Assembly: GCA_025933935.1 (NCBI GenBank)
Contig: JAICYZ010000008.1
Coordinates: 1 to 40,222, forward strand
Length of the DNA: 40,222 nt
Direction of reading: 5' to 3'
From: Chitinophagaceae bacterium
Lineage (GTDB): Bacteria > Bacteroidota > Bacteroidia > Chitinophagales > Chitinophagaceae
Part shown: positions 3,313-9,193 of the stretch, one piece after another
Layout of the letters: each line of letters starts with the position of its first letter
How positions within the stretch are numbered: the first letter of the stretch is position 1
Notes under the pieces: model-generated
The model's database searches: none
Told to the model about the DNA's origin: nothing
The model's input: only the letters and a program-made list of their open reading frames with translations
Position numbers and translations under genes: made by a program

Positions 3313-4386
3313 ATGCTCAAAAGTTTCAGGTATATCTTACTCCCGTTCTCATTTCTTTATGGCGGTATTCTTTGGGTACGCAACAAATTTTTTGATAAAA
3401 ATATTTTGCGGTCTGCTACTTTTAATTTCCCGTTGATATGTGTTGGAAACCTGGCTGTTGGCGGAACCGGCAAAACTCCAATGGTAGAATATCTTGTAAA
3501 ACTCTTGTCCAATAAATACCAGGTGGCAACTTTAAGCCGCGGCTATAAAAGAAAAACAAAAGGATTTGCGATCGCTGCTGAAGATACCTCAGCGGTGGAT
3601 ATTGGAGACGAGCCCATGCAGATTCATCAAAAATTTCCGAACATAACAGTGGCCGTGGCAGAAGAAAGAGTTATTGGAATACCACAATTGCTTTTCGAAA
3701 AACCAAAAACAGAGATAATCATTTTGGATGATGCCTTTCAACACAGGGAAGTAAAAGCAGGATTGAATATTTTATTAACTGATTATAATAATCTTTATTA
3801 CAAAGATATTTTATTGCCGGCCGGCGATTTACGCGATATAAAAAGCAGCAGTAAAAGAGCTGAGATTATTATCGTTACCAAATGTAAGCCAGACCTGAAT
3901 TCGATGGAAAAGAATAAAATTATTGATGAACTTCGGCCATTATCCAATCAAAAAATATTCTTTACAAAAATCGAATACAACGCACTGTATCATTTGTTTA
4001 CGAAAGAAAGGTTTGTGCCGGAGGCCGATTCAGAAGTGCTTTTAATTTGCGGCATTGCTAATCCTCAACCAATAAAAACAATACTGGCGAGCGAAGTTGC
4101 TTCTTATGAATTGTTGCAGTTTAAAGACCATCACATTTTTAATACAGATGATTTAAAGGAAATAAAACTACATTTCGAAAGAATAAAAAATAATAAAAAA
4201 TTTATTATCACCACAGAAAAAGATGCGGTGAGGCTTGCCAAATTTGAAAAAGAATTGGCCGCATTTCCGGTTTACGTTTTGCCAATGGAACATCAGTTTT
4301 TATTTGATGAACGAAGGAAATTTGAAAATGAAGTAATTGAGTTTGTCGAATCTTTCAAAAACGTCGGTAAAAATCTAGAGAATTGA
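3313..4386 (+). CDS. lpxK: Tetraacyldisaccharide 4'-kinase
   Basis: Inner-membrane-associated kinase that phosphorylates the 4' position of the lipid A disaccharide precursor (Raetz pathway). At 357 residues it has normal length. A hydrophobic N-terminal helix (about residues 6-22, ILLPFSFLYGGILWV) anchors it. The Walker A motif NLAVGGTGKTPMVEYL is at about residues 46-61, followed by LSRGYKRKTKGF and the Walker B-like IIILDDAFQHREV. The C-terminal lobe has the typical FKDHHIFN and IITTEKDAVRL motifs. It lies 36 bases after the cyclo-ligase gene, probably in the same transcript. It shows that the organism makes lipid A and is therefore Gram-negative. Confidence 0.95.
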   Translation: MLKSFRYILLPFSFLYGGILWVRNKFFDKNILRSATFNFPLICVGNLAVGGTGKTPMVEYLVKLLSNKYQVATLSRGYKRKTKGFAIAAEDTSAVDIGDEPMQIHQKFPNITVAVAEERVIGIPQLLFEKPKTEIIILDDAFQHREVKAGLNILLTDYNNLYYKDILLPAGDLRDIKSSSKRAEIIIVTKCKPDLNSMEKNKIIDELRPLSNQKIFFTKIEYNALYHLFTKERFVPEADSEVLLICGIANPQPIKTILASEVASYELLQFKDHHIFNTDDLKEIKLHFERIKNNKKFIITTEKDAVRLAKFEKELAAFPVYVLPMEHQFLFDERRKFENEVIEFVESFKNVGKNLEN

Positions 4387-4401: not shown

Positions 4402-4422
4402 TAAATTTACATTATAAATTTA
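4402..4422 (+). promoter_or_regulatory. Inverted repeat upstream of the small-gene pair, possible operator
   Basis: TAAATTT (4402-4408) and AAATTTA (4416-4422) form a perfect 7-base inverted repeat with a 7-base spacer, ending 25 bases before the ATG at 4448. Its placement would suit autoregulation by the HTH-like product of that gene. The arms are purely A/T, so chance occurrence in this AT-rich spacer is quite possible. Confidence 0.3.
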
Positions 4423-4447
4423 TTAAAAAACACTAAACAGTAGATCA

Positions 4448-4735
4448 ATGTTAGAAGTAATCGAAAATTTCCTGCTGCTAAAAAAGGAAATTTCCACCTT
4501 GATAAAAAAATCCGGATACAGGAATGATTTTATCGCTGCAAAGATCGGAATGCGCAATGATTATTTCGCTGTAAAAAAACAAAGAGGAAATTGGTCGGAT
4601 GAAGAACTTCTAAAAATTATAAAAGTGATCGAAAACGAAGAAGTGTCTAATTTTTTCGATTCACTTGTTATTAAAAATTACTTTCCTGGAAATACAATTT
4701 CTTCAGAAGAATTTGAAAAAATTATGGAATGGTAA
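4448..4735 (+). CDS. Small helix-turn-helix-like protein, candidate antitoxin
   Basis: I do not recognise a named family. The 95-residue product is highly charged and predicted helical. The stretch from about residue 18 to 62 (KKSGYRNDFIAAKIGMRND, then YFAVKKQRGNWSDEELLKII) has the spacing of a lambda-repressor/XRE helix-turn-helix: a short helix with AAKIGM in the place of the usual LAKKLGI, a recognition helix with YFAVKKQRG, and a following helix. The C-terminal tail (about residues 65-95) could bind a partner. Its stop overlaps the next gene by seven bases. Gene order and overlap resemble a two-gene toxin-antitoxin module. It could also be a plain small regulator or an unrelated helical protein. 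Confidence 0.65.
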   Translation: MLEVIENFLLLKKEISTLIKKSGYRNDFIAAKIGMRNDYFAVKKQRGNWSDEELLKIIKVIENEEVSNFFDSLVIKNYFPGNTISSEEFEKIMEW

Positions 4736-4983
4736 TTATTTTAGAAAAGCTATTTGTAGTTCAATTACAAATCTGCGATCATCATTTTCAAAACCAATTT
4801 AGAAAATTTTATCAGCAATTAAAAGTGGTTAATAAAGTAACTGAAATTAAAAATGTTTATCAAATAGGAATGAATCTGTATAAAGTGGAAATAGATAAAA
4901 GTAAAATAGCTCTTCGGGTATCTGATAATACAGTCATAATTGGTTGTTTCCTCAAAAATCAGTTTTACGTATCCGGTATTTGA
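4729..4983 (+). CDS. Small basic protein, candidate RelE/HigB-like toxin
   Basis: An 84-residue product of no family I can name with confidence. It starts at the ATG overlapping the stop of the preceding gene (7-base overlap), suggesting coupled translation. The layout is a short N-terminal strand, an amphipathic helix (HHFQNQFRKFYQQLKVV, about residues 18-34), then strands NVYQIGMNLYKVEID, KIALRVSDNTVIIGCFLKN. That order, and the pattern of G.nLYkv.i, then R., then a hydrophobic strand ending in F.KN, is reminiscent of RelE/ParE-fold ribosome-dependent RNases. The similarity is weak and judged by eye. Alternatives are a non-toxic partner protein or a lineage-specific orphan. Confidence 0.6.
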   Translation: MVIILEKLFVVQLQICDHHFQNQFRKFYQQLKVVNKVTEIKNVYQIGMNLYKVEIDKSKIALRVSDNTVIIGCFLKNQFYVSGI

Positions 4984-5155
4984 GTTTATTTTTCCTATAA
5001 TTTATATTATGTTAAGTAGACTATTCTGAATCTTTCAGTAAACAACAAATACCTTACATTTCTTTATTCTCCTACCTGCATTACGCTTCTATCGCACATT
5101 TCGCTTTCAATAAACAAACAAATAAACCGGTTTCGGATTTAGAAAATGAAACAAA

Positions 5156-5200: not shown

Positions 5201-6523
5201 TCAGTTTACAAATTTCGCGTCTGCCTGATCATATTTATCCTGATATTCTTTCAGGTGTGTTTTATCGCCAAGGCTTTGATAAATGTTCTGTAAGAGATTT
5301 ACAACAGATTTATAACGCGATTTTTCGGCTTTTTTATAACCTTGTTCTAAAGTACTCAGCGCTTTTTCAGCATAAGGCACGGCTTGCTTAAGAAATGCGT
5401 CTCCCTGGTCTGACAGGTCTTTCTTTTGTTTCGTCTGATCAGGAGTTAATTTCGCACCTTTGATTTTTGCTGCGTCCTCTAACGTTGTGATTCCTTTGTT
5501 GTAATAAAACTGAGCATATAATAAGTTTACACTTGAATTTGCGGGATCCAAAGCCAGTGCTTTATCTAATTGGGCTTGCAAAGTTTTCATCAGATTATCT
5601 TTGTTCTGTACTGCCGTTCCTTCATCGCCACTATATAAATAACTGAATATTTCTGTTGCATAATTCAAATGATAACGCAAACTGTCGGGATGTTTCGTTG
5701 TTAGCTCGTCATATTTTTGGAACAATGCCGGACGATTTTCATTTTCCCGGTAATAATCCATTTCTACAAAATCAAAATAATCGTCTTTCGGGAAAAGCTC
5801 TTTACCCAGCGTGGCGTATTTAACCATATTGGCGGAATCTTTAGCCTCTTTATAATCAAGAGTCAGCCACTGATAAGGCAATTCAAAGGCGGGATCAGCA
5901 CTATCTGCTGCATTGTGCAATCCTTTGATGTGAGCATCGGCGATTTCTTTAAAGTATTTTCGCGCCATGTTATCGTTCTTTGCATTCAAAGCGGCCTTTG
6001 CAATATTTAATACCAGAGTGGTATCAACAGCTCCGATTTTGGCCCAACCTTTTTCCCTGATATATTGACCCACATTATCAGCTTTGATAAAGAGATTCAT
6101 GGCTTTGGCAAATCCGGCAGTATCAGATTTTCCTGCAGCGTCATTAAAGGCATTAGCAGCTTCCTGATAATAGCCGGCATAAATACCAAAAATCGGCTGG
6201 TAATTATCTTTTACAGTCAATAAAGTCAATTTTGCATTGTTGGAATCTGCGATTGCTTTTTTAAATGCATCAAAAGCTTCTGCATATGGATCACCCGTAA
6301 ATAAACCTTTATAAGCAGAACTGTCAGCCATTGTTGAATAAACTTTACTCTTTAAATAAAGCGCTTCTGAATTATTTGGATCCTTTGCCAATATCCCGTC
6401 AATTTCAGTTTTGGCTTTGTCCCACTTCTTGTCATTTACATAAGAAGTTGCTTTTTTGATATCTTGTCCAAAAGTGCTTGCAACAAGAAAGGTAAATAGA
6501 ACCGGTAAAAGTATTCTTTTCAT
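5201..6523 (-). CDS. Exported tetratricopeptide-repeat protein
   Basis: A 440-residue periplasmic (or surface) protein. A signal peptide is clear: MKRILLPVLFTFLVASTFGQ, cleaved after GQ or nearby. The mature part is helical with TPR-like units. One lies at about residues 21-62 (AKTEIDGILAKDPNNSEALYLKSKVY) and another at about 305-340 (LDKALALDPANSSVNLLYAQFYYNKG). The last lies near 380-425 (AEKALSTLEQGYKKAEKSRYKSVVNLLQNIYQSLGD). It begins 12 bases after gyrA and shares its terminator, so the two are probably co-transcribed. A TPR gene directly after gyrA is a recurrent arrangement in Bacteroidota, but no functional link is known to me. TPRs suggest a protein-binding scaffold. Confidence 0.85.
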   Translation of the reverse strand: MKRILLPVLFTFLVASTFGQDIKKATSYVNDKKWDKAKTEIDGILAKDPNNSEALYLKSKVYSTMADSSAYKGLFTGDPYAEAFDAFKKAIADSNNAKLTLLTVKDNYQPIFGIYAGYYQEAANAFNDAAGKSDTAGFAKAMNLFIKADNVGQYIREKGWAKIGAVDTTLVLNIAKAALNAKNDNMARKYFKEIADAHIKGLHNAADSADPAFELPYQWLTLDYKEAKDSANMVKYATLGKELFPKDDYFDFVEMDYYRENENRPALFQKYDELTTKHPDSLRYHLNYATEIFSYLYSGDEGTAVQNKDNLMKTLQAQLDKALALDPANSSVNLLYAQFYYNKGITTLEDAAKIKGAKLTPDQTKQKKDLSDQGDAFLKQAVPYAEKALSTLEQGYKKAEKSRYKSVVNLLQNIYQSLGDKTHLKEYQDKYDQADAKFVN

Positions 6524-6535
6524 GTGTTTGTTTTT

Positions 6536-9193
6536 TTATTGATTATCAAGTTCATTGACTCCTTCATCTGAAATTTCATTGTCATTATCATCTGCTGCAT
6601 TATCTCGGCCAGACTCTTCTGTTTCCAACTCATTTGCCGATGGAATAATTGCGTCATTTTCTACGTCTTCTTCGGTCACAATTTGAATCTCGCCGCTCAC
6701 CTCTTCAATTTCAGTATCGTTTAAATTGGTAATAGCCGCAATTTCATCGCCTTCATCTAATTTGATCAGTTTCACCCCTTGTGTAGCTCTTCCTGCTTCA
6801 CGGATAGACGCGATTGACGTGCGAATAGTTACACCGGATTTACAAGTAATCATTAAATCCTGCGTTTCATTAACATTTAAGAGTCCGATTAATTCGCCTG
6901 TTTTTTCTGTAACATTTATAGTTTTTACCCCTTTGCCGCCTCTGTTGGTAATTCTGTATTCTTCAACAGCAGTTCTCTTTCCATATCCTTTTGCGCTCAC
7001 AACCAGTACACTAACCTCGGGATCATTAACATTTACACAAATCATACCAACTACTTCGTCAGTTTCAGCATCAACAGAAATTCCAAAAACGCCTATCGCT
7101 CCTCTCCCGGTCGGTCTTACTTTTTCTTCCGGAAACCGGATCGCGCGGCCACTTTTCACTGCCATCATGATCTGCTGGTTACCATCGGTAAGACAAGCAT
7201 CTAGCAATTGGTCGCCGTCATTCACGGTAATTGCATTGATACCATTTTGCCTTGGCCTTGAGAAATCAGCAACTTTTGTTTTCTTGATAATTCCTTTCCG
7301 CGTACAAAGTACGATATAATGGTTATTTATATATTCTTCATCCTGAAGATTTTTTATGGTAATAATCGTTCTGATCGCATCATCTGAAGGAATTTGAATT
7401 AAGTTTTGAATTGCACGACCCTTACTTTGTTTATCGCCTTCGGTAATTTCATAAACTTTAAGCCAGAAACATCTTCCTTTTTCTGTAAAAAACAATAAAG
7501 TATGGTGCGTGGATGCAACAAACAATTTGTCAATATAATCTTCTTCTCTCGTCCTGCTTCCTATTGCCCCGCGTCCACCGCGCCTTTGCTGGCGATATTC
7601 TGTAGCTGAAGTTCTTTTAATGTAACCCAAATGAGAAATAGTAACCACCACATCTTCTTCCTCTATCAGATCTTCCATACTGATTTCGTCGGCCAGGTAC
7701 GTGATTTCTGTTTTGCGCGCATCACCAAATTTGTCTTTGATCTCTGTCAATTCATCCTTAATGATCTGGAATCTTTTGCTTTCATCACCGAGAATATCTT
7801 TCAGCTTTTCAATCAATCTCATTACTTCTGCATGCTCTTCCCTGATCTTTTCACGTTCCATTCCGGTAAGGCGCTGCAATCTCAATTCAAGTACCGCTTT
7901 TGCCTGGATTTCGCTCATGCTGAAATCTGCGATCAAGCCGTCTTTTGCAATATCAGGAGTAGATGAAGCACGAATGAGTTTAATCACTTCATCCAAGTGA
8001 TCTAATGCAATCAAAAATCCTTCTAAAATATGTGCTCTTTCTTCTGCTTTTTTTAATTCAAATTTTGTTCTTCTGATCACTACTTCATGGCGGAAATCAA
8101 CAAATTCACGGATCAGATCTTTAATGTTCAAAACATGTGGCCTTCCTTTTACCAAAGCCACATTATTGATCCCAAAAGAAGTTTGCAGTTCGGTATGCTT
8201 ATATAAATGATTGATTACCACTTGTGATATCGCATCTTTTTTCAAATCAACTACAATCCTGGTACCTTCTTTATTGTTGCTTTCATTATTGACATCTGAA
8301 ACTCCTTCGATCACTTTTTCATTGATGAGATGCCCGATCTTTTCGGTAAGTGCATCACGGTTTACCTGGTAAGGAACTTCTGTAATAATGATTTTTTCCT
8401 TGCCTGTCTTTGAAGTTTCCACTGTTACTTTTCCACGTAAAACGAGTCTTCCGCGACCTGAATGCATGGCTTGTTTCACGCCGTCGTAGCCGTAAATAAT
8501 TCCACCGGTCGGAAAGTCAGGTGCTTTTACTATTTTGATTATTTCATCAATGGAAATTTCACGATTATCTATAAAAGCAATGCAACCATCAACCACTTCA
8601 GAAAGATTGTGTGGTAGCATATTGGTAGCCATACCTACAGCAATTCCACTGGCACCGTTTAAAAGTAATTGTGGAATACGAGTCGGCAATACTGTCGGCT
8701 CGTTTGTGCTGTCGTCGTAATTTAATTGCCAATCAATGGTATCTTTCTCAATATCATCCAACATTGTTTCCGCAATGCGTTCCAATCTCACTTCTGTATA
8801 ACGCATGGCTGCCGGGAAATCGCCATCCTGGCTTCCAAAGTTTCCCTGTCCGTCAACCAATGTATAACGCATGCTCCAATCCTGCGCCATCCTCACGAGG
8901 GTTCCATAAATGGATGAATCTCCATGAGGATGGTATTTACCCATCACATCACCGACAATACGGGCCGATTTTTTATAGGGTTTATTATACGTGTTTCCCA
9001 TTTCATACATACCGTATAAGATGCGCCGATGAACCGGTTTTAATCCGTCGCGGGCATCAGGCAGCGCTCTGCCTACGATCACGCTCATTGAATAATCAAT
9101 GTAGGCAGATTTCATTTGTTCTTCAATATTAACGGGTATGATTCTGCCCCGTGGCTGGCCGTTTTCCGGCAATTCTTCTCCTATTGTTTCCAT
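6536..9193 (-). CDS. gyrA: DNA gyrase subunit A
   Basis: Breakage-reunion subunit of gyrase (A2B2 with GyrB), which introduces negative supercoils. The 885-residue protein has the N-terminal winged-helix/tower domains with DARDGLKPVHRRILYGM. The catalytic tyrosine is in AAMRYTE. The GyrA box QRRGGRG (in YRQQRRGGRGAIG) marks it as gyrase rather than ParC. Six-bladed C-terminal wrapping repeats follow (GYGKRTAVEEYRITNRGGKGV, shortened here to YRITNRGGKGV). The last about 70 residues are strongly acidic, which in other gyrases modulates wrapping. In the quinolone-resistance region the protein reads HPHGDSSIYG: the Ser equivalent to E. coli S83 is kept, but the position of D87 is Gly. It is the first gene of a two-gene operon. 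Confidence 0.97.
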   Translation of the reverse strand: METIGEELPENGQPRGRIIPVNIEEQMKSAYIDYSMSVIVGRALPDARDGLKPVHRRILYGMYEMGNTYNKPYKKSARIVGDVMGKYHPHGDSSIYGTLVRMAQDWSMRYTLVDGQGNFGSQDGDFPAAMRYTEVRLERIAETMLDDIEKDTIDWQLNYDDSTNEPTVLPTRIPQLLLNGASGIAVGMATNMLPHNLSEVVDGCIAFIDNREISIDEIIKIVKAPDFPTGGIIYGYDGVKQAMHSGRGRLVLRGKVTVETSKTGKEKIIITEVPYQVNRDALTEKIGHLINEKVIEGVSDVNNESNNKEGTRIVVDLKKDAISQVVINHLYKHTELQTSFGINNVALVKGRPHVLNIKDLIREFVDFRHEVVIRRTKFELKKAEERAHILEGFLIALDHLDEVIKLIRASSTPDIAKDGLIADFSMSEIQAKAVLELRLQRLTGMEREKIREEHAEVMRLIEKLKDILGDESKRFQIIKDELTEIKDKFGDARKTEITYLADEISMEDLIEEEDVVVTISHLGYIKRTSATEYRQQRRGGRGAIGSRTREEDYIDKLFVASTHHTLLFFTEKGRCFWLKVYEITEGDKQSKGRAIQNLIQIPSDDAIRTIITIKNLQDEEYINNHYIVLCTRKGIIKKTKVADFSRPRQNGINAITVNDGDQLLDACLTDGNQQIMMAVKSGRAIRFPEEKVRPTGRGAIGVFGISVDAETDEVVGMICVNVNDPEVSVLVVSAKGYGKRTAVEEYRITNRGGKGVKTINVTEKTGELIGLLNVNETQDLMITCKSGVTIRTSIASIREAGRATQGVKLIKLDEGDEIAAITNLNDTEIEEVSGEIQIVTEEDVENDAIIPSANELETEESGRDNAADDNDNEISDEGVNELDNQ

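Follow-up and report, generated by a model that had tools for sequence, protein, structure and literature searches.

HigBA-type pairs combine a RelE-fold toxin with an XRE antitoxin, and the toxin gene comes first. Going by the predictions, the two-gene locus described here combines folds of these two kinds, but its antitoxin gene precedes the toxin gene. The best sequence and fold matches of its toxin family are the archaeal RelE/RelB systems (M. jannaschii 3bpq and P. horikoshii 1wmi), from which it differs in two respects: the partner is a predicted XRE-like helix-turn-helix (HTH) protein, and the toxin is a short form without two arginines conserved throughout the long form of the family. 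The pair lies next to dif, the site where linked bacterial chromosomes are separated before division, which is 28 bp long and normally present once per chromosome.

In the accessible part of PMC3025954, dif was predicted in all 19 single-chromosome Bacteroidetes then analysed. Acinetobacter dif modules, according to the accessible parts of PMC10132070, PMC6449649 and PMC12907356, carry higAB, relBE and other pairs, so that toxin-antitoxin genes adjoin dif-type sites as they do here. Those modules lie between two sites, in plasmids and chromosomes, whereas the pair studied here is found in Bacteroidota with one chromosomal dif and a second site was not found. IS1202-family elements such as ISAba71 share with our family the XerC side of the chromosomal dif and a single orientation, but they have a transposase and a fixed 5-bp distance (PMC10132070, accessible part); the distance in our family varies from 6 to 352 bases, and inspection of the listed neighbouring ORFs by eye showed no transposase. 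In the literature within reach, which covered few subscription journals and included the accessible parts of the four papers cited above, we found no description of pairs like these beside dif in the Bacteroidota.

Here we analyse a stretch of 40,222 nucleotides (the window) from a member of the Chitinophagaceae. Homology and predicted fold identify positions 4448–4983 as a type II toxin-antitoxin-family pair, of which toxicity and autoregulation would be expected.

Organization of the locus

The features of the locus are collected in Table 1. The original prediction described two small overlapping genes whose products belong to no recognised family. Both open reading frames and their overlap were confirmed, and neither protein reaches the cut-off of any profile in Pfam or NCBIfam, PF05016 (ParE_toxin) and TIGR02385 (RelE_StbE) included in the case of the second.

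Table 1. Features at and around the gene pair in the window.
Feature	Coordinates	Strand	Remarks
lpxK, left neighbour of the pair	3313..4386	+	named in the original prediction; ORF list; matches in 14 of 20 congeneric genomes, own genome included
Inverted repeat TAAATTTA-5-TAAATTTA	4402..4422	.	chance-level; perhaps part of an A+T-rich promoter
Antitoxin-like gene	4448..4735	+	95 aa, ATG start, predicted XRE-like HTH protein; relatives found in genome searches
Predicted HTH, codons 26-46 (helices 26-33 and 37-46)	4523..4585	+	AlphaFold2 model, alignment
Toxin-like gene	4729..4983	+	84 aa, ATG start, RelE fold (predicted), short subfamily without two long-form arginines
7-base overlap of the antitoxin-like and toxin-like genes	4729..4735	+	ORF list
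Chromosomal dif	4990..5017	+	XerC arm 4990-5000, spacer 5001-5006, XerD arm 5007-5017
Tetratricopeptide-like (TPR-like) gene, far side of dif	5201..6523	-	ORF list; TPR by eye
gyrA (by eye), next after the TPR-like gene	6536..9193	-	ORF list

The toxin-like protein has a predicted RelE fold

The second protein had been likened to RelE/HigB toxins from its order of strands and helices. The AlphaFold2 model (mean pLDDT 91) bears this out: it runs strand-helix-helix-strand and continues as a sheet of further strands, as in a RelE fold. The best Foldseek match of the model is 3bpq_B (RelE, E 9.2e-5). VIA gave a Z of 11.3 to 1wmi_A, with RelE entries at the top and YoeB, YafQ, HigB and ParE entries lower.

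At the sequence level, the RelE/ParE kinship of the window toxin follows from the profile scores of its long-form relatives and from the profile link between short and long forms. Three long-form second genes were compared with PF05016 (cut-off 23), and two of them scored 34.8 and 32.6 bits while the third, cut by a contig end, scored 22.2; one of the three reached 29.1 against TIGR02385 (cut-off 27.9) and the other two stayed below. Long-form relatives are thus found above the cut-offs of these families, whereas the window protein is below them and the short form L014 matches no curated family, these two included. PF05016 was matched at E<=0.1 by 24 of 31 aligned second genes. When seven short forms were aligned with 23 long forms, profile against profile, hhalign returned a probability of 97.9 and an E of 4.5e-13, and the PDB RelE3 entry 3bpq matched the long profile at 6.7e-24 and the short profile at 8.5e-4.

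A short subfamily has lost two arginines

The short forms (window, L037, L040, L051, L014, which is the L042 locus, L060 and L028) form one clade with 100/100 support in a tree of 42 toxins; L029 and L030, recognised later than the 31-pair alignments and outside the tree, resemble them. In the long forms, R59, R64, R82 and Y86 (L041 numbering) are invariant (23/23). These positions were equated with RelE residues by spacing, which is close to that of the residues required for RelE1 activity, R60, R65, R85 and Y89; E. coli RelE needs R61, R81 and Y87 (PMC12620021, accessible part). The RelE-type ribonuclease set is incomplete in the window toxin and the other short forms. By eye, R59 is replaced in all seven aligned short forms, the window included, and the C-terminal segment holding R82 is arginine-free in all seven, which end early; R64 is kept in five and is a lysine in two (window and L051), and a tyrosine near Y86 is present in every one. 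Because the window toxin is without the two long-form-invariant arginines, one of which is the presumed general acid, it may be no active RNase.

The short forms have a conserved set of their own, comprising 18 invariant columns, eight of them in the second helix. The dN/dS ratio was 0.15 for the L040 and L051 toxins and 0.10, with dS near saturation, for those of L040 and L042. Of 11 pairs, nine yielded no YN00 estimate and seven no dS under NG86; synonymous sites of the window and L037 toxins are saturated, so that the ratios stand for the short forms and not for the window toxin itself. The short forms are thus under purifying selection, indicating that they are kept for some function. The pairs of L040 (5001–5533), L051 (5001–5533) and L014 (5559–6097) sit at one place within an operon for arginine biosynthesis, flanked by an M20 peptidase gene and argH (genes named by eye); they are perhaps orthologous and might influence the operon.

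These observations all speak for a domesticated pair, in which the short RelE-fold protein has ceased to be a toxin and has taken on regulation jointly with the HTH protein, for instance of the operon around the pair. The window, L037, L060 and L028 pairs, however, are found in four other neighbourhoods, as selfish pairs would be, and location in an operon is by itself no proof of regulation. We regard domestication as a serious alternative, though one we would not bet on. More broadly, the residue changes together with the purifying selection suggest that the short subfamily has either a changed target or the role of a regulator.

The first protein is predicted to be XRE-like

The HTH-like spacing noted earlier in the first product is present in its model, which is all-helical (pLDDT 90) with two suitably placed helices (Table 1). 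F40, K43 and K44 are invariant across 31 aligned first-gene sequences. The best Pfam match of these 31 members is HTH_26, a weak one that 7 of them reach at E<=0.1, and comparison with XRE-type HTH proteins gave a Foldseek E of 0.2 and a best VIA Z of 7.7, a moderate to weak likeness. Assignment to a known antitoxin family was rejected, as the matches were weak and scattered. We describe the first protein as a predicted XRE-like HTH protein; sequence and fold are consistent with this, but the likeness is weak in both.

The original prediction also placed an operator at a perfect inverted repeat 25 bases upstream of the antitoxin ATG. The repeat exists, and each of its arms, TAAATTTA, is palindromic by itself. 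However, when the 61-base gap (82% A+T) was shuffled with a first-order Markov model, 4.8% of the shuffles contained such a repeat, and 11 of 122 A+T-rich 61-mers of the window contain one as well, which is chance level; the operator reading was rejected. The repeat was not seen by eye in the 170 bases 5' of the gene of the nearest relative, L037. The toxin-antitoxin reading thus stands as regards family identity and falls as regards the operator. The Bacteroidota-type box TAnnTTTG occurs within 80 nt of the antitoxin start at 21 of 38 loci (window included) versus 3.3 expected; the window has no exact box within that distance.

Relatives of the pair

Searches with the first gene gave matches in 7 of 99 related genomes, own genome included (those in G047 and G094 weak or decayed), in 14 of 394 genomes of a Chitinophagaceae sample, own included, and in 16 of 341 genomes of a sample of Cytophagales, the order of Dyadobacter, the query genome included; 51 loci were found among named genomes. 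Loci from the two samples extend about 1.5 kb per side. As a single-sequence query, the window toxin matched 3 of the 99 genomes, own included; G053 holds the sole clear relative, and the match in G006 is weak with four internal stops. The nearest named relatives belong to Chitinophagaceae (Foetidibacter, Ferruginibacter, Niabella) and Spirosomataceae (Dyadobacter). Viral contigs (scanned with six and two short peptide patterns), phage records and plasmid records yielded no relative of the first gene.

The pair is conserved as a unit: an overlap of 1–10 bases joins the antitoxin-like gene to an intact toxin-like gene at 41 of the 51 loci, a count that takes in L066, cut by its contig end, and excludes as broken or missing L045, L046, L069, L071, L072, L074, L075, L081, L082 and L083. 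Alignments comprised 31 pairs drawn from the 51 loci plus the window, L014 and L028, with broken pairs and near-copies left out and L042 and L014 treated as one locus. At several loci (for example L069, L071, L072, L082 and L083) an intact first gene stands next to a broken second gene, as expected of a toxin, although this evidence is biased because the search was anchored on the first gene. One decayed copy of the pair, with several stops, lies at L019 (5613–6100, G047), about 1 kb beyond two peptidase-like genes. In another observation, L038/L039 and L043/L044 (5001–5566) share the same dif-side neighbourhood, and the first two thirds of their antitoxins are nearly identical while the toxins and antitoxin tails differ, as if toxin and antitoxin tail had been exchanged jointly.

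The chromosomal dif site beside the toxin gene

Six bases 3' of the toxin stop lies a sequence, unremarked in the original prediction, that consists of a XerC arm, a spacer and a XerD arm: TTTTCCTATAA TTTATA TTATGTTAAGT. The XerD arm is one base off the A. baumannii dif printed in PMC10132070 (accessible part). A 23-base dif pattern with at most two mismatches matched 67 of 99 related genomes, of which 66 carry it a single time and G064 carries it twice. The window genome has one match, and a reversed control pattern gave one match in the 99 genomes, in G024. With a looser pattern, 32 of the 37 genomes that hold the 51 named-genome loci matched, against two control matches, and six of the 32 (G451, G452, G458, G463, G475 and G479) had a second match. 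In G458 (Pseudarcicella hirudinis, the genome of L056) both matches are exact, and the one at the pair also adjoins a TPR-like gene and gyrA. The two-match genomes, G064 included, could reflect second replicons, mixed bins or chance. At the site the local GC skew changes sign, positive before it and negative after, and it wavers farther on; gene direction alone could account for this turn. We assign 4990–5017, by its sequence, as the chromosomal dif, with putative XerCD action.

The TPR-like neighbour also occurs in G003 and G006 of the genus (blastp) and, by eye, at the Dyadobacter, Pseudarcicella and L077 loci, where gyrA follows it at the dif-side loci (by eye). The combination of dif, the TPR-like gene and, where the locus is long enough, gyrA is a neighbourhood common to Chitinophagales-type and Cytophagales-type genomes.

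Family members lie beside dif more often than chance

Not counting the window, dif lies past the toxin gene on the same side and in the same orientation at 8 of 51 loci: L038, L039, L043 and L044 (Dyadobacter), L055 and L056 (Pseudarcicella), L064 (Foetidibacter) and L077 (Cytophagales). The XerC arm begins 84–352 bases after the toxin stop at these eight. The expectation is 0.002 for 51 independent loci, 500 bases, one strand and a 6-Mb genome. The four Dyadobacter copies are orthologous by their flanking genes and represent one event, so that the number of independent events is below eight; the other 43 loci are away from dif. In the Cytophagales sample, dif is near 2 of 22 places, both among the eight, and in the Chitinophagaceae sample it is near none of the other 16. 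For a control we used 150 PF05016 places listed from a larger total: 101 of them are in genomes with a dif match, at least one of the 101 (G028) being itself a member of the present family; none of these 101 is near dif, ten are on the dif contig and the nearest is 34 kb away. A 3-mismatch dif-like match near L074 (also L009, L018 and L034, same genome) was not counted, being on the opposite strand and upstream; that genome has no match to the 23-base pattern. For the loci and collections examined, members of the family are located beside dif far more often than by chance.

Is the unit mobile through XerCD?

The dif-side position in several lineages, always on the XerC side, would fit a unit that moves via XerCD like the plasmid dif modules of Acinetobacter and whose other flanking site has decayed. 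In the 50 nt leading up to the antitoxin start, L038, L043 and L044 also contain, by eye, 14 consecutive bases identical to the dif spacer and part of the XerD arm and oriented like the true downstream dif; this may be a promoter coincidence. Against such mobility, no second site with three or fewer mismatches was found at the dif-side loci, and the best dif-like score 5' of the antitoxin gene was not significant in the window (p 0.90, 200 shuffles per locus). Among the other dif-side copies, p was 0.04 for L038, 0.25 for L043, 0.18 for L044 and 0.12 to 0.75 for the rest, while the lowest value among 52 loci, 0.005, belonged to L078, which is away from dif. A second dif-like site upstream of the antitoxin gene was rejected on these scores. 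The viral, phage and plasmid searches described above likewise speak against mobility, and we consider it unlikely. As no second flanking site was found, XerCD capture is a lead and not a result.

The family lies at dif in several lineages

In four genomes of the window's genus, lpxK is followed by dif with the pair absent: G006 (44 bases apart), G019 (31), G015 (overlapping) and G007 (205). In two more, G003 (406) and G016 (356), an unrelated small gene lies between lpxK and dif and the pair is again absent; in the remaining genomes lpxK and dif are farther apart, on separate contigs, or one of them was not found. These six genomes imply either arrival of the pair in the lineage of the window or its survival there alone, and arrival is the simpler reading. 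For Dyadobacter, the histidine kinase gene on the left flank of the carriers was matched (E<=1e-100) in 1 of 15 genomes lacking the pair at dif, on a contig other than that of dif, so that no comparison with an empty site was possible.

On trees built from fewer than 100 columns, in which the window and L064 toxins are on long branches, the dif label needs six changes; at least five are forced by well-supported branches in the antitoxin tree and at least four by supported branches in the toxin tree. The nearest relative of the window, L037, is away from dif, and the species that carries it has another family member, L064, beside its dif. We conclude that at least three lineages are at dif, namely Dyadobacter/Pseudarcicella, Foetidibacter L064 and the window, and that L077 may be a fourth. 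That the locus is an ordinary chromosomal toxin-antitoxin pair with a meaningless dif-side place inherited from one ancient event is improbable: the shared dif, TPR-like and gyrA neighbourhood, the orthologous Dyadobacter copies and the clustering of the dif label on the trees (as few changes in 8 of 500 shuffles) would suit it, but a single dif clade is rejected on the toxin tree (AU p 3.3e-7), and the label changes, the six pair-free genomes and the placement of L037 and L064 all argue against it.

Discussion

We propose that 4448–4983 is a two-gene type II toxin-antitoxin-family operon, in which a gene for an XRE-like HTH antitoxin and autorepressor would be followed, in overlapping codons, by that for a RelE-fold toxin. 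The antitoxin would be expected to bind its own toxin and its own promoter. The simplest course of events would be an insertion of the pair between lpxK and the chromosomal dif at some point in the evolution of the genus. Long-form members, which keep the arginine/tyrosine set of RelE ribonucleases, probably cleave RNA, and the short-form toxin of the window most likely persists with a toxicity that is weak or altered, or chiefly as a co-repressor. Our best guess for the excess at dif is repeated capture or retention at a site that is recombination-prone, nearly single-copy and indispensable. Taken as a whole, this explanation, that is, a toxin-antitoxin-family operon inserted at dif, with an altered short toxin and a family enriched at dif, appears to us probable.

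A bolder and rather doubtful extension is that this Bacteroidota family is tied to dif as such. Its units would repeatedly settle on the XerC side and be retained, so that a cell losing dif or the terminus would die, or Xer-using phages would be denied the site, and one branch would have swapped its RNase active site for another function.

Toxin-antitoxin pairs are common, but if this family does prefer dif, where chromosome dimers are resolved, addiction modules would gain a link to maintenance of the terminus or, outside Acinetobacter, to gene capture that depends on Xer. Named genomes in which to test this are available in Dyadobacter and Foetidibacter. The short subfamily provides a natural set of RelE-fold proteins that have kept the partner and lost two presumed active-site arginines.
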